Origin: a virus
Virus record (IMG/VR): IMGVR_UViG_3300036851_000360
Location: 1 to 64,000 of that record
Length of the DNA stretch: 64,000 nucleotides
Reading direction: 5' to 3' (one strand)
Part shown: positions 15,708-55,488 of the stretch, piece after piece
How positions within the stretch are numbered: the first letter of the stretch is position 1
Layout: each line of letters starts with the position of its first letter
Program-made: the position numbers and the translations under genes
The notes under the pieces: model-generated
Told to the model about the DNA's origin: nothing
Databases searched by the model: none
Seen by the model: only the letters and a program-made list of their open reading frames with translations

Positions 15708-16997
15708 GTGGTCAACAGGTACTCGCCGCGGACGCCGGCCTGGGTGGACGGGCCGCAAGGGTTGGTGTTCGCGGCCGACGCGAACCGCTGGGAGCAGGGC
15801 ATCGAGGCGCTCGACAACGCCCTCGACGCCGCCGAGGGTCGGCTGGACGCGCTGCAGGCCGCGCTCGGAGGCATCACCGCCACCGGTGTCCCGGTAGTCA
15901 CTACCGCCACTCGCGGCACGCCCACCAAGGGCCGGATCGTCTTCGACGACGACCTGGATCAGTACATCGGCGGGACCGGGACTGCATGGATCGAACTCAG
16001 CGTCGGCGAGGAGGTCCCCGGCCCCGGTTCCGGGACCGCACCGACCGGGCTGACCGCGGTCACCCAGCCGGACAACTCGATCGTCGTGAGCTGGAACCCG
16101 GTGGTGGGTGCGACCCACTACAAGCTGTACGAGATCCGCTCCCCGGGCGGCGTCTCGGGCGCGGACAACATCACCACGACCTCGACCACGCGCACCCCTA
16201 GCTCGATGGGCAACTACGAGTACTGGGTGACCGCCTTTGTCGGCGGCGTGGAGTCGGCGCAGTCCAACCACGGGCTCTGCGTGCTGCCCTACAGCACCGG
16301 CGGCGGCGGTGGAGGTGGTTCCGGCAGCACGCCGGCGCAGCTGCTCGCGCTCGGATCGACCGGCGGCAAGTGGAACCTAGGTGTCGGTTACCCGTCCGGG
16401 CACGTCGACATCGCACCGTCCACGTTGGAGGGCGGCTGGACGGAAGCCCCGTACTTCTACGTCAATGAGGCCGGGACCAAGGTCCACTTCCAGGTCCCGA
16501 TGAACGGCGGGCGCACGAGCTCCAATACGAAATATCCCCGGTGCGAGCTGCGCGAGTACATCGGTAGCTCCAAGGCGGCGTGGTCCGGGTCGTCCGGAAC
16601 GCATGTGATGTCCGGGCGGACCACCGTCCTGCACATGGAGTCCGGCAAGCCGGAGATGGTCGTCGCGCAGATGCACGACGGGTCGGATGACACCCTGCAG
16701 ATCCGGGTCGAGGGCACGACGTGGCGCGCGTCGATCAACGGCACCGAGCACTCCACCACGCTGGGCACGTTCTCGACGGGCACCGAGGTGGCGTGGGAGA
16801 TCCGGGTGGTCAACGGCACACTCACGATCAAGATCAACGGCACCACGAAGATCACAACCAACCCAGGATACGGCTCAGGGCAGTACTTCAAGGTGGGCTG
16901 CTACGCACAGCAGAACAACACCTCCGATGGCGGCGGCAACCCCGACAACGGGTACGCGTCCTGCGAACTGCGGGACCTCGTAGTTACGCACAGCTGA
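15708..16997 (+). CDS. tail protein with FN3 and PL7 alginate-lyase-like domain
   Basis: A 429-residue virion-associated depolymerase candidate. Residues 1-55 look like a tail-attachment coiled segment; about 104-190 form a fibronectin type III-like domain; a Gly/Ser linker (202-212) leads to a PL7 alginate-lyase fold (about 215-429). PL7 signatures are visible: YPRCELREY, VVAQMHD (the Q-x-H site) and YFKVGCYAQQN. It would cut uronic-acid polymers in the host coat. GGGGAGAAC precedes GTG 15708. The end overlaps the next gene (TGATG). Confidence 0.8.
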   Translation: MVNRYSPRTPAWVDGPQGLVFAADANRWEQGIEALDNALDAAEGRLDALQAALGGITATGVPVVTTATRGTPTKGRIVFDDDLDQYIGGTGTAWIELSVGEEVPGPGSGTAPTGLTAVTQPDNSIVVSWNPVVGATHYKLYEIRSPGGVSGADNITTTSTTRTPSSMGNYEYWVTAFVGGVESAQSNHGLCVLPYSTGGGGGGGSGSTPAQLLALGSTGGKWNLGVGYPSGHVDIAPSTLEGGWTEAPYFYVNEAGTKVHFQVPMNGGRTSSNTKYPRCELREYIGSSKAAWSGSSGTHVMSGRTTVLHMESGKPEMVVAQMHDGSDDTLQIRVEGTTWRASINGTEHSTTLGTFSTGTEVAWEIRVVNGTLTIKINGTTKITTNPGYGSGQYFKVGCYAQQNNTSDGGGNPDNGYASCELRDLVVTHS

Positions 16998-27991: not shown

Positions 27992-28330
27992 GTGGACGCG
28001 GTCCTGACCACGCTCATCGGGGCAGCCCCACAACTCGGTGTCGGCGGCATCCTCCTCACCCTGCTGGCGTTGTTGATGCGCCGGGAGTCGCAGGACCGGG
28101 CTGACTACCGCACCCAGATCGCGGAGCTGTCGTCCCGGCACGCCGACGAGTTGAGGCGGATCAACGAGTCGCACGATGCGGAACTCGCCGAACTGCGTGT
28201 GGAGATCAAAGGTTTGCGGGTGCAGCTCGACGAGGTCAACCGGAAACTCGACGAGGAACGTGGCCTGAGGCGGGCAGCGGAGGACTCCATGCGACCCCGG
28301 CACCGGCGCACCCCAGGCGACACCCCATGA
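27992..28330 (+). CDS. membrane-anchored coiled-coil protein
   Basis: A 112-residue protein with one hydrophobic segment (about residues 12-28, [15 protein letters not shown]) followed by a long charged coiled coil ([10 protein letters not shown] ... [13 protein letters not shown]). GTG 27992 with GGAGG 9 nt upstream is preferred to ATG 27914, which would overlap the previous gene by 53 nt. It may be a holin-like or spanin-like accessory or an anchored virion protein; the sequence alone does not decide. Confidence 0.65.
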
Positions 28331-29022
28331 ACCGGGCCCGGCACCGGCTGCAACTGTGGACCCGGAACCGGATGGTGATGCTCGCCGTCGCCGCCACGGC
28401 GGTGCTGTTCATCGTCGCCGCGTCAGTGTGGGCCCAGCTCGGGCAGCAGGCCGCGCAGCAGCAGACCGGGGTAGTGGAACAGCAGCGCGACCAGGCGACC
28501 GAGCAACGAGACGACGCCGCCGCGCAGGCCGTGTCCCTCGCCGAGCAGATCAAGGCGGCGTGCGGGGACGGGTCCCTGTCAGGGGCAGTGTGTGAGCAGG
28601 CGGAGCAAGTCGCTGCAACACCCGTCCCTGGACCGGTTGGACCCCAAGGCGTCCCCGGGGCGTCTGGGCAACCCGGGACAGCCGGCGAGCCCGGCGCGGC
28701 TGGACCTGCTGGACCGACCGGGACGGCTGGCGACCCGGGGGCTACTGGCCCTGCCGGGCCCGCCGGCACGGATGGCCGGGATGGTGTGGACGGCGCGGAT
28801 GGTGTCGACGGGCAGGATGGCGAGCCTGGTCCAGCTGGCCCGGCAGGTCCACAAGGACCGACTGGCGAGCCTGGAGAGGACGGCCAGGACGGCGACGACG
28901 GGCCCCAAGGCCCACCCGGTGAGCCGCCAGCCTCCTACACGATGACCATCCTTGGGATCACGTACACGTGCACCCGCACCGGCGGGGACAACACCTCGCC
29001 CACATACACCTGCTCGACCTGA
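28327..29022 (+). CDS. collagen-like membrane-anchored protein
   Basis: A 231-residue protein: basic N-terminus, transmembrane helix (about residues 16-36, [20 protein letters not shown]), coiled-coil stalk (38-80), then about 100 residues of Gly-X-Y collagen repeats (from [20 protein letters not shown] to PQGPPGEPP) and a short Cys-containing C-terminal cap (YTCTRTGG). Coupled by ATGA to the upstream gene. Collagen repeats are known in phage fibers, but an N-terminal anchor suggests it may instead be shown on the infected cell surface. Confidence 0.75.
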
Positions 29023-29067
29023 GCAGCTCTGATCCTTGCAGTTCAACGTCACCTTCTGGGAGACACC

Positions 29068-29766
29068 TTGAAGAAGATCGTCGTACCCGCTGCTGCCCTC
29101 GCGCTGTCTCTTATGACAGTTGGCGCGGGCCTGGCGCAGGCGGCGGAGCCGGCCAACTGCGCCGACGCCATAACCGCTCTCCAGCGCGCCGACTCGGACC
29201 ACCGCGCTGCTGTCGCCGCGGACGACAAGGCCGCCGCGGCGGAGAAGGCCGTCGACGACCTCGAGCGGGCAGAGGATCGGCTCGCGGACGCCGAGCGGGA
29301 TCTGGCGGCTGCGCGGGACACGCTCACGCGGGCCAAGGACCGTCTCGCCGATCTGAAGAAGCCCGGCGATGGCCCTGACGACAACACCACTCAGGAGCCG
29401 GGTGAGACCATCGGGAGCGAGCAGCAGATCGCCGACGCGCAGTCCGCTGTCGACGCCGCGGAGGACAAGGTCGATGACCTCACCGTCGTGCGCAACGACC
29501 GCCTGGAGGAGCGCAACGACGCTGTCGATCTGGAGAACGACGGCGACGCCGACGACCTGCAGGACGAGGCCGACAAGACCGACGCCGCCGCGCTGAAGAA
29601 GGCGGTCGACGAGGCGCGGGACGACTTCAACCGGATCTGCATCGACGAGGACGACCCCACCGACGACGTCACTACGACGCCCGCCACCCCGACGCCGGCG
29701 CCTGACGTGGACGTCACCGTCGTGACCCCCCGCGGGGGCGTGGCCACCGGCGGCGGTCCTGCGTGA
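29068..29766 (+). CDS. secreted coiled-coil protein with sortase-type C-terminal tail
   Basis: A 232-residue exported protein. A clear signal peptide (MKKIVVPAAALALSLMTVGA, cleavage after AQA) is followed by two long acidic coiled coils and a Thr/Pro linker. The C-terminus ends TPRGGVATGGGPA, which resembles the P-x-G-G-V-x-T-G tails of proteins encoded beside actinobacterial class E/F sortases. The next gene is a sortase overlapping by 4 nt. TTG 29068 has GGGAG 5 nt upstream. Inference: a surface protein processed by the phage sortase, altering the host wall. Confidence 0.7.
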   Translation: MKKIVVPAAALALSLMTVGAGLAQAAEPANCADAITALQRADSDHRAAVAADDKAAAAEKAVDDLERAEDRLADAERDLAAARDTLTRAKDRLADLKKPGDGPDDNTTQEPGETIGSEQQIADAQSAVDAAEDKVDDLTVVRNDRLEERNDAVDLENDGDADDLQDEADKTDAAALKKAVDEARDDFNRICIDEDDPTDDVTTTPATPTPAPDVDVTVVTPRGGVATGGGPA

Positions 29767-30410
29767 CCCAACGCCTCCTGTTCAGCGCGGCCCTCGGCGC
29801 CATTCTGGCCGGGGCCGCGCTGGTCGCCTGCACGACCACGGCCCAGGTGGTGGAGGATCTGCCGTCGGGTGGTGCGGCTGCAAGCTCGGTGCAGGCACCT
29901 GAGTTCGTTGAGGTTGCGGAGCCGACGGCGATCCGGATCCCGAAGATCGGGGCCAGTTCGGAGCTCGACGAGCTCGGGTTGAACGCCGACGGGTCCCTGC
30001 AGGTGCCGCCCGTTACGGATCCGTTGACCGCTGGCTACTACGCCGGCGCAAAGCCGGATGAGTCCGGGGACGAGGTCTTGCCTGGCGAGCTGGGCGCGGC
30101 GGTGGTCGCGGCTCATGTCGACGGCGTGATCAACGGGAAGAAGGGCCAGCCCGGGTTGTTCTTCCGGCTGCACCAGCTTGAGCCCGGCGACGAGATCTTC
30201 ATCGATCAGGCCGATGGCGGTCAGCTGCGGTTCCTCGTCGACCGCGTCGAAACCCACAGCAAGGACCGCTTCCCCTCCGACGCAGTCTATGGACCGACTG
30301 AGCGGCCAGAGCTGCGGCTCGTGACCTGCGGCGGATCGTTCTCGAGGACGTCAGGACATTACCTCTCCAACGTCATCGCGTTCGCGACCCTGGCGCCCGA
30401 GCAGCAGTGA
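29763..30410 (+). CDS. class F-like sortase
   Basis: A 215-residue transpeptidase candidate that would attach a secreted partner to the cell wall. The N-terminal signal ends in a lipobox-like LVAC (Cys23). The sortase domain shows IRIPKIGASSEL, catalytic His118 in AAHVDG and Cys189 in RLVTCGGSF. An Arg at 195 follows; the Arg that often lies just after the GHY motif is Leu here, so activity should not be assumed. It overlaps the upstream secreted protein (GTGA), its likely substrate. Sortases are uncommon in phage genomes. Confidence 0.82.
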   Translation: MTQRLLFSAALGAILAGAALVACTTTAQVVEDLPSGGAAASSVQAPEFVEVAEPTAIRIPKIGASSELDELGLNADGSLQVPPVTDPLTAGYYAGAKPDESGDEVLPGELGAAVVAAHVDGVINGKKGQPGLFFRLHQLEPGDEIFIDQADGGQLRFLVDRVETHSKDRFPSDAVYGPTERPELRLVTCGGSFSRTSGHYLSNVIAFATLAPEQQ

Positions 30411-31108
30411 TCGGTCGGTGCGCGTCCTGTCTGCACCGCCGTTCCGAGCACGACTACCCCCGCCCCAACGCTGGCTGCAGCCGATGCCTCTGTCCGATGT
30501 GGTTTGCGCCGATCTGGCTGCTCGGGTGGCGGGCGCTCAACCAGTGGCTCGCCGAGAAGGTGTGGAGGATCCCACGTGACCAGCCCGCACATTCCCGGCC
30601 GAGCCCAGCTAGCGCGGTGCCAGACGGAGGCGGCGTTCTGGCGGAACTACGCCGCCCTCGCCCGGTTCGCCCGGCCGGATCATCTGCCACCGCTGCGGAA
30701 CCAGAACCGCCGTCGTCTGTGGCCTCGCCCGCCGTGGCATCGGGCGTCCACACCGGCGGCGATTCCGCAGCAGCGGGCAGTCCCGCAAGGTTTGCCGCCG
30801 CGGTCCCGGATCGGGTTGCCGAGACGGTGAAGCAGTTCTGGGCCTGGCTGTTCCTGCCGCGCCGGGTCCTGTCGGCGATGGAGCGCGACATCGCCCGCGT
30901 GCAGTGGGCGCAGACCGAGACTCTGACCAGGTTGAAGGAGTTGAAGACGATGACCGTTGTGGTTGCCAAGCCGGGTGATCGCGGAGCGGCTCTGGCGGAA
31001 CTGTGGCAGGTGCGGGATCTCCTCGCCGAGAGTGACCCGGACCTCGCAGCCCGCCTCCACGCTGTCTATAACGCGCTCGTGGTCGCCCACCCGGGCGACG
31101 CGGGCTGA
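30407..31108 (+). CDS. Cys-rich N-terminus, helical C-terminus; possible mosaic frame
   Basis: A continuous 233-codon ORF coupled by GTGA to the sortase. Residues 1-60 hold a zinc-binding pattern (CASCLHRRSEHD ... CSRCLCPMW) and aromatic helix. Residues 140-233 form a charged helical region (AMERDIARVQWAQTETLTRL). Between them (about 30570-30810) third-position G/C falls sharply, and other frames look more gene-like. It may therefore be two genes read as one: a zinc protein at the 5' end and a separate gene starting near GTG 30827. Confidence 0.5.
   Translation: MIGRCASCLHRRSEHDYPRPNAGCSRCLCPMWFAPIWLLGWRALNQWLAEKVWRIPRDQPAHSRPSPASAVPDGGGVLAELRRPRPVRPAGSSATAAEPEPPSSVASPAVASGVHTGGDSAAAGSPARFAAAVPDRVAETVKQFWAWLFLPRRVLSAMERDIARVQWAQTETLTRLKELKTMTVVVAKPGDRGAALAELWQVRDLLAESDPDLAARLHAVYNALVVAHPGDAG
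30576..30830 (+). CDS. possible overlapping small gene, frame-disturbed
   Basis: An 84-codon ORF in another frame over the low-G/C-third-position stretch of the gene at 30407. It has an excellent GGAGG 7 nt before GTG 30576, and a convincing first part (TSPHIPGRAQLARC, TEAAFWRNYAALARFARP). After about 30680 its codons look poor while the third frame becomes gene-like with a CHRCGTRTA motif, suggesting a frameshift inside an original zinc-finger gene. Its stop overlaps a GTGA. Confidence 0.35.
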   Translation: MTSPHIPGRAQLARCQTEAAFWRNYAALARFARPDHLPPLRNQNRRRLWPRPPWHRASTPAAIPQQRAVPQGLPPRSRIGLPRR

Positions 31109-31499: not shown

Positions 31500-31739
31500 A
31501 TGGGCGACTGGTATCTCGGCAACGACAACCGCTGGCACTACGACAAGAACGCACCCAGCCCGGGCCAGCAGCCAGCGGTGACGATGATGCACCCCGTCGT
31601 CCATCCCACACCGCCCGCCGAGCCTGTCTTCGCCGGCGACGTCGGGGACTGGGTCGACCCCAACGCCCCCGACCCCACCCCCGACGAGATCGCCGACCCG
31701 GAACACTCCGACTACGTCGACCCCTGGTTCGGGCCGTGA
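31500..31739 (+). CDS. small acidic protein before endolysin
   Basis: A 79-residue Pro/Asp-rich protein (MGDWYLGNDNRWHYDKN ... DPNAPDPTPDEIADPE). AAGGAGG lies just before ATG 31500, and the stop overlaps the endolysin start (GTGA), so expression is tied to lysis. It has no membrane segment or signal. Function unknown; the aromatic start resembles short surface-associated domains with paired Trp. A longer in-frame ORF back to 30957 overlaps two other genes and is rejected. Confidence 0.65.
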   Translation: MGDWYLGNDNRWHYDKNAPSPGQQPAVTMMHPVVHPTPPAEPVFAGDVGDWVDPNAPDPTPDEIADPEHSDYVDPWFGP

Positions 31740-32467
31740 CCCTGCTGCGGACGTACGAGCCCGCGAGGACCTGCACCGGCGGGCCCGAGCCGGGGGCGAA
31801 GGCGTTGATGGCGTGGTTTCTCGGCGCGTTCGGGTCGCAGGGCGGGAAGAACCTCGGCATCTACAACTGCCGGTCCGTCCGCGGTGGGTCCACCACGAGC
31901 TTGCACGGCGAGGGCCGGGCTTGCGACCTCGGTATCAACCCGCACGGCGCCCCCTACGGAACCCTCCTCGCCGAACGACTGCGGCTCAGCTCGGGCGAGC
32001 TCGGCATCCAGTGCCTCATCTGGAACCGGCGCATCTGGTCCGGCTCCTACCCCGATGCGGGCTGGAGGCACTACTCCGGCACCAACGCCCACGTTGAGCA
32101 TATTCACTTGGAGCTCTCAAGGGTGGCCGCGCGGAGCCTCACGCCAGCGCAGATTCAGCGAGTCCTGTCACCCGCCTCGCCCACCGCACGAGCGCCGTTG
32201 CCTCAGCCTGCGCCCCGCCCGCCAGTTCGGAAGGACGAACAGGTGTACATCAAGCACCAGCCCGACCCGACCAAGCCGGACATCTGGACCGCCCTGCTCG
32301 TGGGCCCGTTCTTCATCGGGCTGAACGCGAACGAGGCCCGTTCCGCAGACGGTGAGATCCAGCGGGGCGCGACCTGCCAGTGGGTGGAACGCGCGACGTG
32401 GGACGACCTGGACCGCCGCAGCATGGCCATCGCCCGCATTACCCCGAACACCCCCGGAGCGCAGTGA
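31736..32467 (+). CDS. endolysin, M15/LAS-type peptidase
   Basis: A 243-residue peptidoglycan hydrolase. The catalytic domain (residues 1-130) has the LAS metallopeptidase signature: STTSLHGEGRACD gives zinc ligands His57 and Asp64, and VEHIHLEL gives His124, as in M15 D,D-carboxypeptidase and ARV-1 VanY-like lysins. A Pro-rich linker (150-165) leads to a C-terminal domain (about 168-243) of unknown type, perhaps wall-binding. No signal peptide, so release should depend on the holin gene downstream. Coupled to the upstream gene by GTGA. Confidence 0.82.
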   Translation: MTLLRTYEPARTCTGGPEPGAKALMAWFLGAFGSQGGKNLGIYNCRSVRGGSTTSLHGEGRACDLGINPHGAPYGTLLAERLRLSSGELGIQCLIWNRRIWSGSYPDAGWRHYSGTNAHVEHIHLELSRVAARSLTPAQIQRVLSPASPTARAPLPQPAPRPPVRKDEQVYIKHQPDPTKPDIWTALLVGPFFIGLNANEARSADGEIQRGATCQWVERATWDDLDRRSMAIARITPNTPGAQ

Positions 32468-32520
32468 TCATGGGGGAGCACAGCCTGGTCAACGACCGGG
32501 ACGACACAACCGGAGGAACC

Positions 32521-32859
32521 GTGAATGTGCTTGGACGCGAGCCCGCGCAGTGGATCGGACTCCTGTCCGCCGCTGTCGCCCTGTTCTCTTCGCTCATCTT
32601 CCCGCTCGACGTCGGGCAGCAGGGCGCCGTGATCGCCGTCGCCACTGCCGGGTTCGGAATTGCGGGCGCGTTGGCGGTGTCGGCGGAGAAGGCTGCGCCG
32701 TTGGTCGCTGGCCTGGTGCAGTCGGTGATCGCCTTGGCGCTTGCCTTCGGGTTGCAGCTTCCCCCGGAGGTCCAGGGATCGATCATGGCGTTCGTTGCCG
32801 CAGGAGTGGCGTTCTACCTTCGCACTCAGGTCACCGCACCAGTACCCGCAGACGCCTAA
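32521..32859 (+). CDS. holin
   Basis: A 112-residue membrane protein with three to four hydrophobic segments (IGLLSAAVALFSSLIF; GAVIAVATAGFGIAGALAV; VAGLVQSVIALALAFGL; GSIMAFVAAGVAFYL) and the opening NVLGREPAQW common among actinophage holins. It would open the membrane to let the endolysin out. GTG 32521 follows GGAGG by 4 nt and is preferred; an in-frame ATG at 32470 would add 17 residues. Placed directly after the endolysin and before a terminator. Confidence 0.8.
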   Translation: MNVLGREPAQWIGLLSAAVALFSSLIFPLDVGQQGAVIAVATAGFGIAGALAVSAEKAAPLVAGLVQSVIALALAFGLQLPPEVQGSIMAFVAAGVAFYLRTQVTAPVPADA

Positions 32860-35250: not shown

Positions 35251-35579
35251 CGCCTCACTCGTGCGGCACCAGCGTCTTCGGCGGGTGCAGGTGTCCACTC
35301 CGCCGGCCGCTGCTCCGGGATCCGCGGCAACCCCGGGAAGTCGCCTTCCCGCGATCTGGCCCACTCGTCCCGGTCCCCGTACGGCGGGTACCGCACCTTC
35401 TGCAGCTCCGTGTACTCGCCGGGCAGTTCGTGGGTGCGGTGGTACTGGCCGCCGGCGTAGTCGTCGTAGGACTGCATCCGGTCCGAGCGGAGCTCGAGTG
35501 CCAACCGGGCGGCGACGACGAGTTCATGGTCGTGGGGGAGCTGCGACAGCTTCAGCCCCAGGTCTGCGGCGTCACTCAT
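35247..35579 (-). CDS. hypothetical protein coupled to relaxase
   Basis: A 110-residue protein whose ATG overlaps the relaxase stop (ATGA), so it is translated with it. N-terminal helix (DAADLGLKLSQLPHDHELVV) then a Tyr/Arg-rich region (YDDYAGGQYHRTHELPGEYT) and a Pro-rich tail. It may be a transfer accessory. No family recognised. Confidence 0.65.
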   Translation of the reverse strand: MSDAADLGLKLSQLPHDHELVVAARLALELRSDRMQSYDDYAGGQYHRTHELPGEYTELQKVRYPPYGDRDEWARSREGDFPGLPRIPEQRPAEWTPAPAEDAGAARVRR

Positions 35580-38500
35580 GCCCGTTCCCTCACTCGTGCC
35601 TGCTCGTCTGCCATCTCGGGTGCGGCCAGCCACCGGGTTTGCCGTTCGGCCTCTTCCTCCGCCGCCCGCATCTCGTCGGCGCGGTCACGGTCGGTGCGCT
35701 CAAGGAGGGACTCGCGGGCTCGTCTCACCGAGTCCGCCACCGCATCCGCTGCCGGCACTTCCCGCCGGATGCGTGGGTCGTGTTCCGTCGGATCCGCGAT
35801 CGCAACGTCGCGGATGTCCGCCACAGCTGTCTCGAGGGGCTTCCGCGGCACGGGCAGTTCATGGACGTGCTCGCCGACGAGATCTTCCTCGTGGATCGGG
35901 CGGCGTTCATCGTCGGCGACCCGGTCGGCTTCCTCCGCCGCCAACCACTCCGCCATCGTGGTCCGATCCTCTGGGCGGGCCAGGTCAACTTCGCGGCGCG
36001 CCAACTCCGCCTTGGCACGCTCACCCGAATCACGGGTGCCGGCGGTGTGGAGGAACCACGCGGTCCGCTCCTTGTCTGCGACCTCAAGGTTGAGCTTCAA
36101 CTGTTCGAGCTGTGCCGCTTCCTGTTCAGCCTTGACTGCCGCCTCGAGGACCCCCCGCTTCTCGTCGCCTTCGAGGGTTTCGGCGTGCGCCCGCCACAAC
36201 CCGACCTGGTTTCGACGGTCCGCCAACTGCTCGGAGGTGGCCGCGAGTTCGTCCGCGACATAGCGGGGGGCCCACAGCTGTTCCCGTTCCCATGCCGCGG
36301 CCCGGGCGAGAAGCTGCCCGTCGGACTGCATCGCCTCCTCCGGCCCGACATCCGGCAGGCCGAGAGCGTCGTGGGCGGTCGCCCAGATCGCGCGCTTCTC
36401 CGCCAGCCCTGCGGCGGGGGCAGGGCCGAGCGGGTCATGCTCGTCCGTGTACTCGGCGCCCTCCCGGGACGCGGCTGCCCAACCGGCGCGGGACTCCCAC
36501 ACCGCCCGCCGTAGCGGATCCTCCGGGACCGGCCCCAGTGTCTCCATCGCCCAGGGTGGACGTTCCTCCGCCACCCTTGCGCCGAGCTCGTGACGCCGCT
36601 CATCAGCCTTGTCGGCTTGTTTCTCAAGCCAACCGCGCCACACGTCGCTCACCCCGGCGGGGATGAGGTCCCGGTAGGAGGTGATCCGCGGGATCTGTTT
36701 CCCGAGGGTGTTGCGGATGCGGGCGTGCAGCACCTGCGCTGCTCTCTCAGCGCCAGCCAGGGACTTCCCTTCCAGCGCGTCGCGGAGCACGCCCTCGGGG
36801 TTGTGGCCAGAAACCTCCGCGTTGCGGAGGAGTCGCTCCACAGCGCTCATCGCCTGGTCCGCGGCCAGCGCCTCACGTTGTTCAGGGGTGATGACGCCTT
36901 CCGCGGCGAGCCGATCCAGGCGGGTTGAGGTCGCGCCGGCGGTGGCCTCGTTGATCCCAACGAGTAGCCGGTCGACGTTGCGGAAGGTGGACTGCTCGTC
37001 CTCGATGGCCTGCTCGCGCTGGGCGATCGCCCCCCGTTCCTCCTCGGCGTTCTTGAATGAGTCCGCGAGGACAGCCTTTGCGGTGCGACCCTCGACCTCC
37101 TGCGCTTCCCCGACGGGCGCGTCGGAGGCCAGCTGCTTGGTGGTGACCCACGCTGTGTTCGACTCCCGGCCGCGTGTCATCCCCACGTAGGTGCCGGTGA
37201 GGTCGTGCCCGGTGTCGACGGTGCGGCCCTGTGCGGCGTGCAGGGTGGAGGCGTAGGCGAGGGACAGGTGCTTCTCGACGTAGCTGGCGCTCAGAGTTAG
37301 CGCGACCCCCTTGCTGGTCTCCACCCGCAGTGCCCCGTCGGCGAGGAAATGAGTCACCCGGTACGTCTGCCGGTTGATCAACGGGAGAGGGTTACGGCCG
37401 AGGCGCCAACTGTTCTTTCGTGCCTGCACAAGGTCGCCGATCCCGGCGATGTTGCCGTCTTTGCCGAGACGTACACCGCGTTCGGACACCTTCCCCAACC
37501 GGACGAGCTCGGCCCGGAGCTGGGCGTTCACCTGGGCGGCCTGGTCGTTGCTGCGGACCAACAGCAGGGACTTTTTCCCTGCGAGGGTGTCCGCCAGCCA
37601 CGCCTGCCCTGCCTTGTGCTCGGCCTGTTCGGTTGTGCCGCAGCCACGCAACCGGCCGTGCTTGTCGTACTCGTCGAGGGCTGCGACATTCCCTTCACGC
37701 CACAGCAGCGACGCCGTGCGTTCCCACTCCTCCTGGAACCGCCACACCTGCGTCAGCTCGTAGGACCGTGCCGTGCGACGGAGATCAGCGAACACCCCAC
37801 CGGCCTCGACTGAACGCATCTGCCGTGCGTCGCCGACTGGCAGGAGTTTCGCCCCAACCTCCTCGCACCGCTGCACCAGATCGGCCATGTCCCGGGTGGA
37901 TGCCATCCCCGCCTCGTCCACCACGACCAGGTCACCGGCTCGCAGTTGTAGGGAGTCGTCGTTCTCGACCGCGAGGCGCCACCGGTCGAAGTTGAACGAC
38001 TCCACCCCCTCTTCAGCCATGACGTCGGCGGCGTTCTGCGAGGCGGCCAGCCCGAACGTGCGGCGGCCATGTTCGGCCCACGCGCCCGCGATCAGCCCGA
38101 CAGTTGTCGACTTGCCAGTACCGGCGGCAGCGGAGATGGTTTCCACGTAGGCGCCGGAGGTGAGGACGCCGCAGATCGCGGCCTCCTTGTCCGCCCCCAA
38201 CGTCTCGTCCGCCGCCTCGTTGTAGCGGCGGATGAACGCATCCACCTGCGCCTGGCTCAGCTTCGCCGCCCCAGTCCTGACAGCTGCCTGCTCAGCGATC
38301 CGCTCCTCGGCGATCTGCCCGACTGTGGCGAACTGGGCGGAACCGGGACGCTGGAACGCGGACAGATCACCGGCCAACCGGAACTCGGCTGGCAGGCCGT
38401 CAACCGACTCTTTGGCGACAACGACCTTGGCTTCGGCGAGGGCCTTGTCGGCGAGCCGCTCCAACATCGCGGGGATGTCACCGGCGGGGACACCGAGGTT

Positions 38501-39799
38501 CGCGGGGAGCGCACCCGAGATCGCGAAGATCAGATCGGAGCGGGTCCACACGTGCTCGTTTTTCCCGACTTCCCACAACGCCGCCTTGATCACCTGAGAG
38601 GGGGAGACTTCATCCGCCCGCCCTTGCCCCTTCAGCGCGAGGACGTCGTGGGCGACCTGCTCCAACCCGCCCACCATCTTCGTGCGGGCCTCACGCTCCC
38701 ACCGGTCCAACCGCTGTTCCGCGGTCTCCCCGGTGTGCGACTTCCCCTTCCTCGTCAACAGGGTGGCGCGTTCGGCGATGTACTGCCGCTCCAACGGCGA
38801 CACGGACCGGCCGTGCTGCTCCTCGTACTCGCGGATCAACTGCTCCGTCTTCGCGGTGACCGCGTGGGACCGCTTCGAAAACAGGTCCATGAGCTGCTGC
38901 GGCACACCCGCGATCTCGCGGATGATCCCGTCCTTGCGGGCGTCGCGGGTCACAAACCGGACCCCCAACGTGCGGGCGAGCTCGGCCTCCATGACCCGCT
39001 CACCCACCGCGGCGGCAGCCCACTTGTGCAGCGTCAACGCCGCCCCGTCGACCCGGCCCCACTTCCCATCAGCGCGTTCGTGAACGTTCAGGATCGCCTG
39101 GTGCACATGCAGCTGTGGATCCCGCTCCCGGGAGTCGTGCTGCAGGAACTGGGCGACGATGAACCCCTTCTGCTCCATCCAGCGACCCGCACCGGAGGAG
39201 TGGTTCCCAACCCGGGCGTACGCGTTCGCCTCGAGGTAGTCGACACTTGCCGACGCGCCAGCCATCGCTGCGCCCTCAACCGCGCTGAGCATGGCCCGCC
39301 ACGATGCCGCCTCCTGATGACGTCCTGCACCAGCGGCGACGTTCATCGCCCGCTCGAAGGCGACCGCCAGGAGGGTCACGGACTTCGGGACCGAGAAGGT
39401 GGCATCCCAGAACGCCACCGCCTGCCGCGACTCCCGCTCCGCCGCAGCCTGAAGTTCGGCTCGCCGCTCCGGGCCCGCATCGGGCTCCTTCGCGAGCGCC
39501 TCTTTGTAAATCTCGTCCGGTGACCGGTAGCGGCGGTGGGCGGGAGCCAACGCCCGCGCCTCCGCCCACATCTCCCGGTGATGGGTGGCCTCGTCGCGAG
39601 GGTCGAGCAGACGGGCGTAGATCGCCTCCATCAGATCGGAGTTGACCTCGCCCGCCAGCCCGAGAGCCTGGGCGCCCCGCCCATGCCAGCCGCCGGGCGG
39701 TTCACCCGCGGCTACGGCACCCGTGTAGTAGCCCTCCCGCCCGGTCGACACCGGTCCGGTCAGGTACCCCACCGAGTAGCCCTTGGTCACCTTGAACAC
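35576..39799 (-). CDS. traA: MobF relaxase-helicase (TraA/TrwC type)
   Basis: A 1407-residue conjugative relaxase that would nick one strand at oriT, stay bound to the 5' end and unwind it for transfer. The N-terminal TrwC domain has candidate tyrosines (Tyr8, Tyr12, Tyr24, Tyr25), the DATFSVPKSVTLL motif (about 132-144) and a histidine triad (His221 and His231/His233 in DPQLHVHQAI). The C-terminal SF1 helicase has Walker A AAAGTGKS (about 557-564), Walker B LVVVDEA (about 624-630) and late motifs STLHAAQGRTVD and YVGMTRGRESNTAW. Full length and intact. GTG 39799. Linked to a coupling ATPase upstream. Such an enzyme is unexpected in a phage genome. Confidence 0.93.
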   Translation of the reverse strand: MFKVTKGYSVGYLTGPVSTGREGYYTGAVAAGEPPGGWHGRGAQALGLAGEVNSDLMEAIYARLLDPRDEATHHREMWAEARALAPAHRRYRSPDEIYKEALAKEPDAGPERRAELQAAAERESRQAVAFWDATFSVPKSVTLLAVAFERAMNVAAGAGRHQEAASWRAMLSAVEGAAMAGASASVDYLEANAYARVGNHSSGAGRWMEQKGFIVAQFLQHDSRERDPQLHVHQAILNVHERADGKWGRVDGAALTLHKWAAAAVGERVMEAELARTLGVRFVTRDARKDGIIREIAGVPQQLMDLFSKRSHAVTAKTEQLIREYEEQHGRSVSPLERQYIAERATLLTRKGKSHTGETAEQRLDRWEREARTKMVGGLEQVAHDVLALKGQGRADEVSPSQVIKAALWEVGKNEHVWTRSDLIFAISGALPANLGVPAGDIPAMLERLADKALAEAKVVVAKESVDGLPAEFRLAGDLSAFQRPGSAQFATVGQIAEERIAEQAAVRTGAAKLSQAQVDAFIRRYNEAADETLGADKEAAICGVLTSGAYVETISAAAGTGKSTTVGLIAGAWAEHGRRTFGLAASQNAADVMAEEGVESFNFDRWRLAVENDDSLQLRAGDLVVVDEAGMASTRDMADLVQRCEEVGAKLLPVGDARQMRSVEAGGVFADLRRTARSYELTQVWRFQEEWERTASLLWREGNVAALDEYDKHGRLRGCGTTEQAEHKAGQAWLADTLAGKKSLLLVRSNDQAAQVNAQLRAELVRLGKVSERGVRLGKDGNIAGIGDLVQARKNSWRLGRNPLPLINRQTYRVTHFLADGALRVETSKGVALTLSASYVEKHLSLAYASTLHAAQGRTVDTGHDLTGTYVGMTRGRESNTAWVTTKQLASDAPVGEAQEVEGRTAKAVLADSFKNAEEERGAIAQREQAIEDEQSTFRNVDRLLVGINEATAGATSTRLDRLAAEGVITPEQREALAADQAMSAVERLLRNAEVSGHNPEGVLRDALEGKSLAGAERAAQVLHARIRNTLGKQIPRITSYRDLIPAGVSDVWRGWLEKQADKADERRHELGARVAEERPPWAMETLGPVPEDPLRRAVWESRAGWAAASREGAEYTDEHDPLGPAPAAGLAEKRAIWATAHDALGLPDVGPEEAMQSDGQLLARAAAWEREQLWAPRYVADELAATSEQLADRRNQVGLWRAHAETLEGDEKRGVLEAAVKAEQEAAQLEQLKLNLEVADKERTAWFLHTAGTRDSGERAKAELARREVDLARPEDRTTMAEWLAAEEADRVADDERRPIHEEDLVGEHVHELPVPRKPLETAVADIRDVAIADPTEHDPRIRREVPAADAVADSVRRARESLLERTDRDRADEMRAAEEEAERQTRWLAAPEMADEQARVRERA

Positions 39800-40689: not shown

Positions 40690-41370
40690 CTATGGCCTGC
40701 GGAGCTTGAGTTCTCGGTGCTTGCGTGCGTCCTCGAGCTGCTCGTCGGTAGGCGCCGGCGGGAGGCCGGTGGTGCTCCACGCTTCGGCGACCGCATGGAT
40801 GTGGCCGGCAAGCGGCGCCGCGAGGGGCTCCTTAGCTGCCTGACCTGCTGGTTTGTGGTCCTGAAGGCTGCACGACCCGAGGTGTTTGCGGACCCGCTCG
40901 ACCAGGCGCGGCATGGACTGGTCGTGCCACATGCCCTGCGCTACCGGGTCGTCCTGCGACCCGTACGCCTTCGCGTGGTACCGGCGCAGCCACAGGAGCT
41001 CTTCGATCAGCCAGGGGTGCCAGGCCCAGCAGGAGGGCAGTTCGTTCCCGGGATACCGCAGGTAGACGGCGTTCAGCCACGTCTCGAGGTCGCGCAGACG
41101 CTCGTCAAGTTTCTCGGGGTCTTCACCGACCTGCAGTAGCCACGCCCGTCCGTCGTCCTTCCCTCCTGGCGCGAGGAGGGCGACGAGGCCTTCCTCGAGG
41201 TGCCGGAAGGCCTTCCACATCCCCCGGAGTTCGTCGTCCCACCCGCGTGCGTCGCCCAGTTCCTGCAGCCGGCGGGAGTGCCGGTCGAGCTCCCGCCCGA
41301 TCGTCTGGGCGTCGAGCGGCTGGGTGGGCTCCTCGGGTGGGGGTCCTGCGGGAGGGTCAGTGGGTGGCAT
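40690..41370 (-). CDS. hypothetical transfer-associated protein
   Basis: A 226-residue protein following the coupling ATPase, overlapping it by 14 nt. The Pro-rich N-terminus is followed by a helical domain (IGRELDRHSRRLQELGDARG) and a Trp-rich core (CWAWHPWLIEELLWLRRYHA) with features like the DUF4913-type proteins of actinobacterial conjugative elements. Role unknown; operon context suggests DNA transfer. Confidence 0.7.
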   Translation of the reverse strand: MPPTDPPAGPPPEEPTQPLDAQTIGRELDRHSRRLQELGDARGWDDELRGMWKAFRHLEEGLVALLAPGGKDDGRAWLLQVGEDPEKLDERLRDLETWLNAVYLRYPGNELPSCWAWHPWLIEELLWLRRYHAKAYGSQDDPVAQGMWHDQSMPRLVERVRKHLGSCSLQDHKPAGQAAKEPLAAPLAGHIHAVAEAWSTTGLPPAPTDEQLEDARKHRELKLRRP

Positions 41371-43201
41371 TGGTCAGCTCCCGGTCGGGTGCGGCACCCA
41401 CGGGTACAGGTGTCTGTGGGTGGGTGGGTGCTGGGAGGTCGATGGGTGCGGGTGCCGGGAGCGCAACGGGGTGGGTGACCAGGTGGGTGGGAGATGGCCG
41501 GGAGAACACCCGGCGGGCACCCACACCCACGAGGCGGGTGAGAACCGATGGGTGTCGCTTCCACACGGGGATGACCCGCCCGATCACGATGGGCATGTCG
41601 CCCGTGTAGACGATGGCCTTCCACTTCGGGAGGCTCGCCAGTTGTCCCACGGACAGCACAGGCGCTTTGCGCACGGACGTGGAGGTGATGTCGCCGTCGC
41701 CGTTGCGGGTGACGACGGTTTCGTCGCGGTCGCCGGCGAGGTCGGAGAAGGCCTTCAGGCCACCGACGGCTTTGTTGCCGCCGATGTACATGAGCACGTT
41801 GGAGTTGTTGATGAGCCGCTCGGCTCCGGCCTCGCCGTACTTCGCGATCATGTCGGCGTAGGACTGGAACACCGGCATCAGCTGGATGCCGGAGCCGCCG
41901 AAGTCTCCGGACCAGTCGGGCAGCGGGACGGGGCAGACCCGGGCGGCCTCGTCGAGCGGGAACCGGATCGGCGGGTCGAGCCGCCCCCGGCACGCCCCCT
42001 CAAACGACGGCAGCGCTGCGAGACGGCGGGCTTCGCGGGCGATATACCCGGTCAGCGCTTGCAGCAGCGGAGCAGTGTTCGCCTCATGCCTGCCCAACAA
42101 ATACACGGTGCCCTTGCCGCGGATCAGTTCGGCAACGTTGAACGGGGCGGCCCCCTTGGTGGAGGCGGCCGCCGCCGGCGAGTGGAGCCACTGCAGTGCG
42201 GGCAAGATCCCGGTGGTGATGCTCGAGCGGGTGGTCGGGTTCAGGCCGATGAACTGATCGACGGCGGGCCGGAACGACGGGACCGGGGACGCCTGGAGAA
42301 GTTCATGTACCTCATCGCCGATGTGGTCGGGATTCGCGACCCAGCGGAGGATGTCGTGGCAGTCCCGGGTGCCCTCGGACAGGCCGGCGGCGTGGAGGAA
42401 CGCGGCGAACACCCGCCGGGACTGGGCATCCCAGTCCGCCGAGTCTCCGCGTACACCCTCCCGCTCGGGGATCATGTCTGCGGCCCGGTCGATCGCCACC
42501 GTGGGGTCGTCGCACCCGTGGACGGGGTCGAAGCTGATCGTGGAGTCGACTTCACCCACCCAGGCCGGGTTGTACACCCAGATGGGACCCGTCTTCGCCC
42601 GCAGCTCCCGGGTCTGGTCGTAGAGGTCGGTGCGGGTGGAGGTGGTGACTACGGCCCCGGGGGCGTCGATGACGGGGGTTCCGAGGAGGGCGGTCTTGCC
42701 TCGGCGGGGGCCCGCGACGATGAGTACGACGTCTTCGGCCGAAGCCCACACCCGCATCCCGGCCGCCCGACACAGCAGCACACCCAGCTCCCGGGTGGGT
42801 GTGCGCCACCGCTTCACCCACCCGGCATCCCGTAGGTGCGGGCGGACAGCGCGGGCCTTGCGGTGCATCGCCCACCAGGAGGTGCCGCGGGCGACCTGTA
42901 AGGGGGTGGCGACGCCCGAGCGCCGGCGGGCCTTCTCGCCCCACCGGGTGACGGTGCGGGCCGTCCCGCCGCGCCACCACACCACCCCCGCCACGCAGGC
43001 GACGCCTGCAATGGTGAGGACACCGGCGAGGGTGAGAGCCCCATGGCTCATGTACAGCCACGCGGAGACGCCGACACCGCCGCCGATGCCGACCTTGCGG
43101 GAACTGCCGGCCAGACCGCGCTTGAGCTTGCGGATCCAGTCGCCCACGAAGATGGCGGCGGCCACACCTGCGGTGACGAGGACGACGAACTCGGCGGTCA
43201 C
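41357..43201 (-). CDS. type IV coupling protein (VirD4/TraG-like ATPase)
   Basis: A 614-residue inner-membrane ATPase that would bring the relaxase-DNA complex to the transfer channel. Two N-terminal membrane segments (about residues 2-21 and 44-75) precede the motor domain with Walker A AGPRRGKTALLG (164-170) and Walker B RFPLDEAARV (415-420), plus TGILPALQWL and NNSNVLMYIGG motifs usual in TraG/VirD4 proteins. It is not an FtsK/TraB-type translocase. The C-terminal 60 residues are Pro/Thr-rich. GTG 43201 overlaps the upstream stop (GTGA); the longer ORF to 43282 is rejected. Confidence 0.9.
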   Translation of the reverse strand: MTAEFVVLVTAGVAAAIFVGDWIRKLKRGLAGSSRKVGIGGGVGVSAWLYMSHGALTLAGVLTIAGVACVAGVVWWRGGTARTVTRWGEKARRRSGVATPLQVARGTSWWAMHRKARAVRPHLRDAGWVKRWRTPTRELGVLLCRAAGMRVWASAEDVVLIVAGPRRGKTALLGTPVIDAPGAVVTTSTRTDLYDQTRELRAKTGPIWVYNPAWVGEVDSTISFDPVHGCDDPTVAIDRAADMIPEREGVRGDSADWDAQSRRVFAAFLHAAGLSEGTRDCHDILRWVANPDHIGDEVHELLQASPVPSFRPAVDQFIGLNPTTRSSITTGILPALQWLHSPAAAASTKGAAPFNVAELIRGKGTVYLLGRHEANTAPLLQALTGYIAREARRLAALPSFEGACRGRLDPPIRFPLDEAARVCPVPLPDWSGDFGGSGIQLMPVFQSYADMIAKYGEAGAERLINNSNVLMYIGGNKAVGGLKAFSDLAGDRDETVVTRNGDGDITSTSVRKAPVLSVGQLASLPKWKAIVYTGDMPIVIGRVIPVWKRHPSVLTRLVGVGARRVFSRPSPTHLVTHPVALPAPAPIDLPAPTHPQTPVPVGAAPDRELTNATH

Positions 43202-55098: not shown

Positions 55099-55488
55099 AT
55101 GTCCGACTGCTGCGGTGGGTGCGGTTCGTCGATGGTCCCCCGATCGTCAGGGGAATCCCGCGTCGACACACACGAGGGCCGCGGCCTGTGCCCTCCCTGC
55201 TACCGCCAAGCCCACTACACGGGCCGGTTGGACGAGTACCCGCGGCGGAGCTGGTCCCGGGAAGACGTGATGTCCGAGTGGGATCTGCTCCGGTCGGAGG
55301 GCTACACGCGTCGCGTCGCCGCTGACCGGTTGGGCATGAGGTGGGAGACGTTCGACCGCGCCTACTGGCGGGCCAGGGCAGCGGGTGATCCGCGGGCGGT
55401 GCCGGAGCAGGTGGCCAGCGACGCCGGCATCTGGACCATCCCCCCGACCCTGCGGCCACACGATCACACCATCGGGAGGGTGAAGTGA
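55099..55488 (+). CDS. zinc-finger/HTH-like early protein
   Basis: A 129-residue protein with an N-terminal Cys cluster (MSDCCGGCGSSM) and CPPCYR further on, a zinc-finger layout, and a C-terminal helix-turn-helix-like region (LRSEGYTRRVAADRLGMRWE then TFDRAYWRARAAG). It overlaps the WhiB gene by 4 nt. Probably a DNA-binding regulator. GTG 55096 and ATG 55099 are both possible starts. Confidence 0.7.
   Translation: MSDCCGGCGSSMVPRSSGESRVDTHEGRGLCPPCYRQAHYTGRLDEYPRRSWSREDVMSEWDLLRSEGYTRRVAADRLGMRWETFDRAYWRARAAGDPRAVPEQVASDAGIWTIPPTLRPHDHTIGRVK

Follow-up and report, generated by a model that had tools for sequence, protein, structure and literature searches.

Why would a phage carry a sortase gene, and how would the enzyme hold a substrate that has no membrane anchor? 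Both questions are raised by two overlapping genes in a 64,000-nucleotide stretch of viral DNA (the window), which is part of an IMG/VR record of 72,180 bases (IMGVR_UViG_3300036851_000360; GC content 68%). To our knowledge, sortases have been treated as bacterial enzymes. The record encodes a large terminase (TerL), portal, capsid, tape measure, and tail-fibre proteins, a holin, and a serine integrase; judged by its genes, it is a temperate actinophage. Its terminase shares at best 53% identity with those of known phages, and no DNA-level relatives of the tested 24 kb were found among the 50,697 phage records of INPHARED. The locus includes the following features:

27992..28330, +, small membrane/coiled-coil gene, matching in position an upstream gene that is conserved in related phages
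28327..29022, +, collagen-like membrane-anchored protein (PF01391, E=1e-16; phage tail-fibre PHROGs), a conserved neighbour by position
29053..29067, +, Shine-Dalgarno-like stretch (GGGAGA) preceding the TTG start of the partner gene, read from the sequence
29068..29766, +, partner gene: secreted putative sortase substrate of 232 aa, TTG start, with signal peptide, helical hairpin, and disordered Pro/Asp-rich linker
29728..29763, +, C-terminal motif PRGGVATGGGPA (P221-A232), no helix or basic tail after it, predicted cut Thr227/Gly228
29763..29766, +, 4-nt overlap (GTGA) between the end of the partner gene and the beginning of the sortase gene, an arrangement typical of translational coupling
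29763..30410, +, class-F-like sortase of 215 aa, GTG start, predicted lipoprotein, with His118, Cys189, Arg185, and Asn203
30407..31108, +, downstream ORF with a zinc-ribbon-like CxxC/CxxC start and a 4-nt overlap with the sortase gene (approximate gene boundaries)
31736..32467, +, endolysin-like gene, putative function by position and homologues, no Pfam match
32464..32859, +, holin (phrog_9752, E=1e-21)

Sortase family, fold, and active site

The gene at 29763-30410 encodes a real sortase, as established by family, fold, and catalytic residues. The protein matches Pfam PF04203 with 60.1 bits (gathering cut-off 26.6, E=2.4e-16) and, along its full length, the NCBIfam class F model NF033748 (E=9.3e-47); the latter score, 158.5 bits, is 7.5 bits short of the curated cut-off of 166, and thus we name the protein class-F-like. 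Its closest annotated relatives in sequence searches are actinobacterial class F sortases, and bacterial members of this class are about 35-54% identical to it. The AlphaFold model (pLDDT 86.6) matches 7f87 (SrtA) with Z 15.5 and rmsd 2.1 A over 128 aligned residues, and a sortase E with Z 14.9; a sequence-based search for a close solved class F structure yielded none. The N-terminus contains a hydrophobic stretch followed by the lipobox LVAC with Cys23 (SAALGAILAGAALVAC; pattern [LVI][ASTVI][GAS]C). An earlier note on this DNA, made from the letters alone, had proposed a sortase-like gene with catalytic His118 and Cys189 and a lipobox-like N-terminus, overlapping the preceding gene by 4 nt, and all of these elements were confirmed, the overlap at 29763-29766. 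The same overlap recurs in most viral relatives.

Among 119 aligned sequences, the cysteine of the TC motif (Thr188-Cys189) is present in all and the histidine in 115, and the 29 viral sequences retain both without exception. An arginine four residues N-terminal of the catalytic cysteine (Arg185) occurs in 118 of the 119 sequences and in 28 of the 29 viral ones, and the position equivalent to the catalytic arginine on strand beta8 is occupied by asparagine (Asn203) in 111/119 by hand alignment. Thus, the catalytic set is apparently not the textbook one, and the asparagine at the usual arginine site together with the near-invariant Arg185 may be a peculiarity of the class F active site. The dN/dS ratios between phage sortases, approximately 0.44 and 0.57 with synonymous sites fairly diverged, point to purifying selection.

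The secreted partner

The product of the upstream gene was described in the earlier note as a secreted coiled-coil protein ending in PRGGVATGGG. Its secretion is indicated by a signal peptide read from the sequence (KKIVVPAAALALSLMTVGAGLAQA) with a basic start, hydrophobic core, and AQA/A site, and the motif is in place, but the protein runs two residues past TGGG and ends in VTVVTPRGGVATGGGPA. The coiled-coil description is compatible with the helical hairpin that is predicted, with moderate confidence, to precede a disordered acidic and proline-rich linker. The window's partner has no Pfam match and lacks the Excalibur calcium-binding domain that is found in three of nine partner homologues. 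A similarity to spanins (phrog_1403, E=4e-4) was attributed to the coiled coil, and this identity was rejected.

A single site in the window matches the DNA pattern of the terminal motif, and none was found in any of 100 shuffles. With canonical substrates of the LPXTG type the partner shares an N-terminal signal peptide and an x-T-G motif near the C-terminus; it differs in the motif itself, GGVxTGGG, and in what follows it, since inspection of the sequence revealed no transmembrane helix or basic tail after the motif. The predicted cut between Thr227 and Gly228 follows from LPXT/G chemistry. The missing membrane anchor of the partner is the main puzzle of this locus.

Pairing of the sortase and motif genes

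The gene directly upstream of the sortase encodes a secreted protein with the motif within a few residues of its end in 23 of 29 viral loci; one further locus has a canonical anchor, and five are atypical (e.g., L101 ends in PQGGVQTDGGVE, and the partners in L109, L115, and L203 are extended by a hydrophilic stretch). The strongest test of the pairing is the reverse one: a scan of 2.9 million viral contigs for the motif DNA only (GVxTGGGP(A/G)-stop) returned eight contigs, and a sortase gene follows directly in 8/8. Similarly, the motif terminates 23 of the 877 genes called in the viral loci, 20 of which stand directly before a sortase. In an alignment of nine partner homologues, pairwise identity is 76% in the final 12 columns and 33% in the body; such conservation of the tail far above the body is expected if the enzyme reads the tail. 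Thus, the pairing of sortase and partner in phages is, at the level of sequence, well supported, as is the earlier proposal that the partner is the likely substrate. The search of phage genomes for adjacent sortase and motif genes that the note had suggested recovered such pairs in IMG/VR, and no class F sortase in INPHARED.

The same data bear on a different role, in which host surface proteins are the main targets of the sortase, which would compete with host substrates or re-route them, and the upstream protein serves as a decoy substrate or regulator. Class F sortases and proteins with related motifs are indeed common in actinobacteria; however, a host-directed enzyme would have no need of a phage motif so tightly tied to the adjacent gene (8/8), and we regard this role as unlikely.

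A putative tail-less sorting signal shared with bacteria

Comparison of viral and bacterial partners revealed two types of C-termini: (i) the canonical type, and (ii) a tail-less type that ends in the motif. Of the classifiable viral partners, 23/24 are tail-less and 1/24 is canonical, whereas in the 80 closest bacterial loci, with 90 sortases, 50 partners are canonical and 27 tail-less (p=5.6e-8, with related sequences treated as independent). Plasmid-borne bacterial class F sortases that were examined mostly adjoin proteins in which the motif is followed by a hydrophobic helix and an end rich in arginine. The earlier note had assigned the tail to an actinobacterial type often found adjacent to sortases; the adjacency is correct, but most bacterial partners have the helix and basic anchor that the phage partner lacks. 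A phage-only origin of the tail-less signal was rejected, given that 27 of the 90 bacterial sortases likewise have tail-less partners; two of these 27 (L176 and L185) are prophage-borne. Since tail-less partners account for approximately a third of the bacterial pairs nearest to the phage ones, the signal is an existing subtype and not a phage invention. In the loci compared, this subtype is common in Pseudonocardiaceae, and phages use almost no other form. In bacteria, a lipobox accompanies 26/27 tail-less and 22/50 canonical partners (p=3.7e-6, simple count); a tree-aware test on independent pairs (median p=1) did not support this association, which is therefore given as a description only.

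The tail-less class F pairs of Amycolatopsis, Lentzea, Crossiella, Kutzneria, and other Pseudonocardiaceae resemble the phage pair in the extreme C-terminal motif and in the lipobox sortase encoded just downstream, and differ in being chromosomal, in their protein bodies, and in the motif, often KPKGAPETGGG. Four Lentzea copies among them have lost the catalytic histidine, which is replaced by arginine (L124:11875-12504, L128:11229-11861, L129:11136-11783, and L136:11162-11791); these paralogues are possible pseudoenzymes. Actinobacterial class F sortases in general (NF033748; SrtF1-4) share with the window's enzyme the sequence, the His and Thr-Cys core, and a neighbouring secreted gene, whereas the latter is phage-borne, scores below the class cut-off, has a lipoprotein form, and has a tail-less partner. 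In Actinoplanes missouriensis, deletion of all four class F sortases (SrtF1-4) produced no phenotype, the physiological roles of the class are not known, and the products of the neighbouring genes have a helix and a basic end but no recognised sortase motif (PMC13251363).

Distribution in phages and bacteria

Class-F-like sortases were found on at least 31 other IMG/VR contigs, 28 from alignment-based scans and 3 added by the motif scan, and in one prophage of a cultured Pseudonocardia. A phrog_9-type terminase is present in 13 of the 28. Scanning the viral contigs with one sequence only (P0002) returned nothing; alignments were needed to detect the viral sortases. No class F sortase was detected in the 50,697 INPHARED records by tblastn with three different class F queries, no PHROGs family matches the sortase, and the BFVD viral structure library contains no fold match at E<=0.001. 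A search of the open-access literature for phage sortases found nothing relevant. The phage pair is real, recurs, and seems not to have been described before in any of the resources searched.

In the phylogenetic tree, the window sortase falls inside an all-phage clade of 6-7 sequences (99/88, 100/84). The phage label requires at least six changes on the tree, and thus the gene has probably moved repeatedly between phages and bacteria. Pseudonocardia oceani KRD185 has two copies of the cassette (L176, L185), one in a prophage on the chromosome and one on the 61-kb 'plasmid pPoc2'. A stretch of 20.5 kb is identical between the two elements, and each contains a terminase and a serine integrase; from this gene content, pPoc2 is probably an excised circular prophage. 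The strain is a cultured lysogen carrying the cassette and hence offers a test system.

As the nearest non-viral relatives are bacterial, one might consider that a chromosomal operon of the host was misbinned with viral sequence, or that the locus is the flank of a prophage. The cassette is, however, flanked on both sides by phage structural and lysis genes, in an order kept in several other contigs and in the P. oceani prophage, and this synteny refutes misbinning, to which we assign next to no likelihood. The claim that the sortase is phage-encoded is strongly supported by the structural, lysis, and integrase genes of the record and by the phage-only clade.

Genomic context and timing

Four related contigs (L097, L100, L101, and L197) share a common order: tail-fibre genes, small membrane gene, coiled-coil or collagen-like gene, substrate, sortase, small genes, lysin, and holin. 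A small zinc-ribbon-like ORF that overlaps the end of the sortase gene recurs (window 30407-30580, L100:10558-10716, and L214:681-830, with a similar ORF after the sortase in L101) and possibly belongs to the cassette.

In the sister phage G001, whose terminase is 82% identical, the syntenic region lacks the pair, and a different pair lies approximately 30 kb away. Thus, the pair is an accessory cassette that was acquired more than once, which suggests that it has a useful function. It lies outside the late lysis operon in G001, L104, L106, L110, and L200; elsewhere, it stands beside terminase/portal-like genes (L104) or replication and DNA-metabolism genes, and in L200 it lies close to an HTH regulator and is encoded on the opposite strand from the lysis genes. 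These varied positions make a general lysis function unlikely; placement next to lysis genes is, in the genomes compared, common and not universal. The timing in late infection that the earlier note had offered fits the gene run of the window but not several relatives, which have the pair elsewhere than among late or lysis genes.

The accessory presence of the pair at a syntenic site, its several genomic positions in unrelated phages, and the arrangement in L200 are also what would be seen for a moron expressed in lysogeny, i.e., a lysogenic-conversion cassette that provides a new surface protein (for adhesion, biofilm, or hyphal aggregation) and has no direct anti-phage role. In the clade of the window, on the other hand, the pair lies within a contiguous forward run of genes from tail to lysis, and no sigma-70-like promoter was found by a scan that is weak for actinobacteria. 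We retain the moron as a possible, though not the expected, explanation.

Position directly after the tail-fibre and collagen-like genes might instead suggest that both proteins are virion components, or that a virion fibre, for instance the collagen-like protein encoded next to the pair, has the partner ligated to it. The signal peptide and lipobox would send both proteins out of the cytoplasm, where virions are assembled, and in other phages the pair adjoins terminase/portal or DNA-metabolism genes; a virion role is thus very unlikely.

Proposed surface-display pathway

Based on these data, we propose that a lipid-anchored sortase joins the exported helical partner to the host envelope and probably alters phage adsorption, a reading that we hold to be rather probable as a whole and in which export, cleavage, acceptor, and role are inferred. 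The pathway of this two-gene surface-display cassette would include the following steps: (i) the host exports both proteins, as the signal peptides suggest, (ii) the lipobox places the sortase, lipid-anchored, at the outer face of the membrane, (iii) the sortase recognises the exposed C-terminal GGV-x-T/GGG of the co-translated partner and cuts its tail (VVTPRGGVATGGGPA) between Thr227 and Gly228, and (iv) the partner is transferred to an amino group of the envelope, most likely that of a peptidoglycan precursor. Because the partner has neither a membrane helix nor a basic tail, the sortase would have to capture a soluble or just-exported protein. An anchor-free secreted partner could diffuse off before sorting, which argues against display, as do the non-textbook catalytic set, the varied timing, and the absence of a phenotype in the A. 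missouriensis deletion; translational coupling through the 4-nt overlap and the lipid anchor of the enzyme could compensate for the missing anchor. Should a sorting signal work in this way, an exception would have to be made to the textbook view of how substrates are retained.

The displayed partner would most likely alter the encounters of the cell with other phages, by superinfection exclusion or by preventing re-adsorption of progeny. Phage surface-modifying genes that block adsorption are known, e.g., T5 Llp; the proposed outcome is the same, whereas the phage pair would achieve display covalently, via a dedicated transpeptidase. The changed adsorption is the weakest step of the proposal and is put forward tentatively, as are the wall remodelling and the changes in receptor exposure or adhesion suggested in the earlier note. 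The occurrence of the same kind of pair in approximately thirty other phage genomes suggests that phages redecorate the surface of infected cells. More speculatively, class F sortases may have an anchor-free mode, in which the ~11 C-terminal residues of a secreted, soluble protein form the entire signal, and which temperate actinophages have repeatedly adopted for covalent decoration of the envelope and blocking of phage adsorption; in this extended form we would sooner doubt the proposal than accept it. If the display reading is true, phages alter the surface of the host by attaching proteins to it covalently, and the compact phage-borne cassette provides a natural enzyme-substrate pair with the candidate recognition motif PxGGVxTGGG.

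Mobilisation genes and a repeat junction

The window also encodes a 1407-aa TrwC relaxase/TraI-type helicase (35576-39799, -) and a TraG/TraD-type coupling protein (41357-43201, -), a mobilisation module in a temperate phage. The relaxase has only weak partial matches in INPHARED, e.g., in phage Adler, and is present in the related phages G047 and G050. As these two phages have both relaxase and sortase, and as the relaxase and coupling protein genes of the window are 5-13 kb from the pair, the latter might be part of a conjugation module, with the partner as a mating-pair adhesin. The distribution largely refutes this link: of 28 other viral records with a sortase, some of them fragments, just 2 have a TrwC relaxase, and we consider the link extremely unlikely.

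Close to the contig end, at G000 70946-71021 (L086:8947-9022), two exact copies of window segments adjoin, one of 44 bases (window 55230-55273, reversed) and one of 33 bases (window 16007-16039); their side-by-side arrangement is possibly an assembly artefact.
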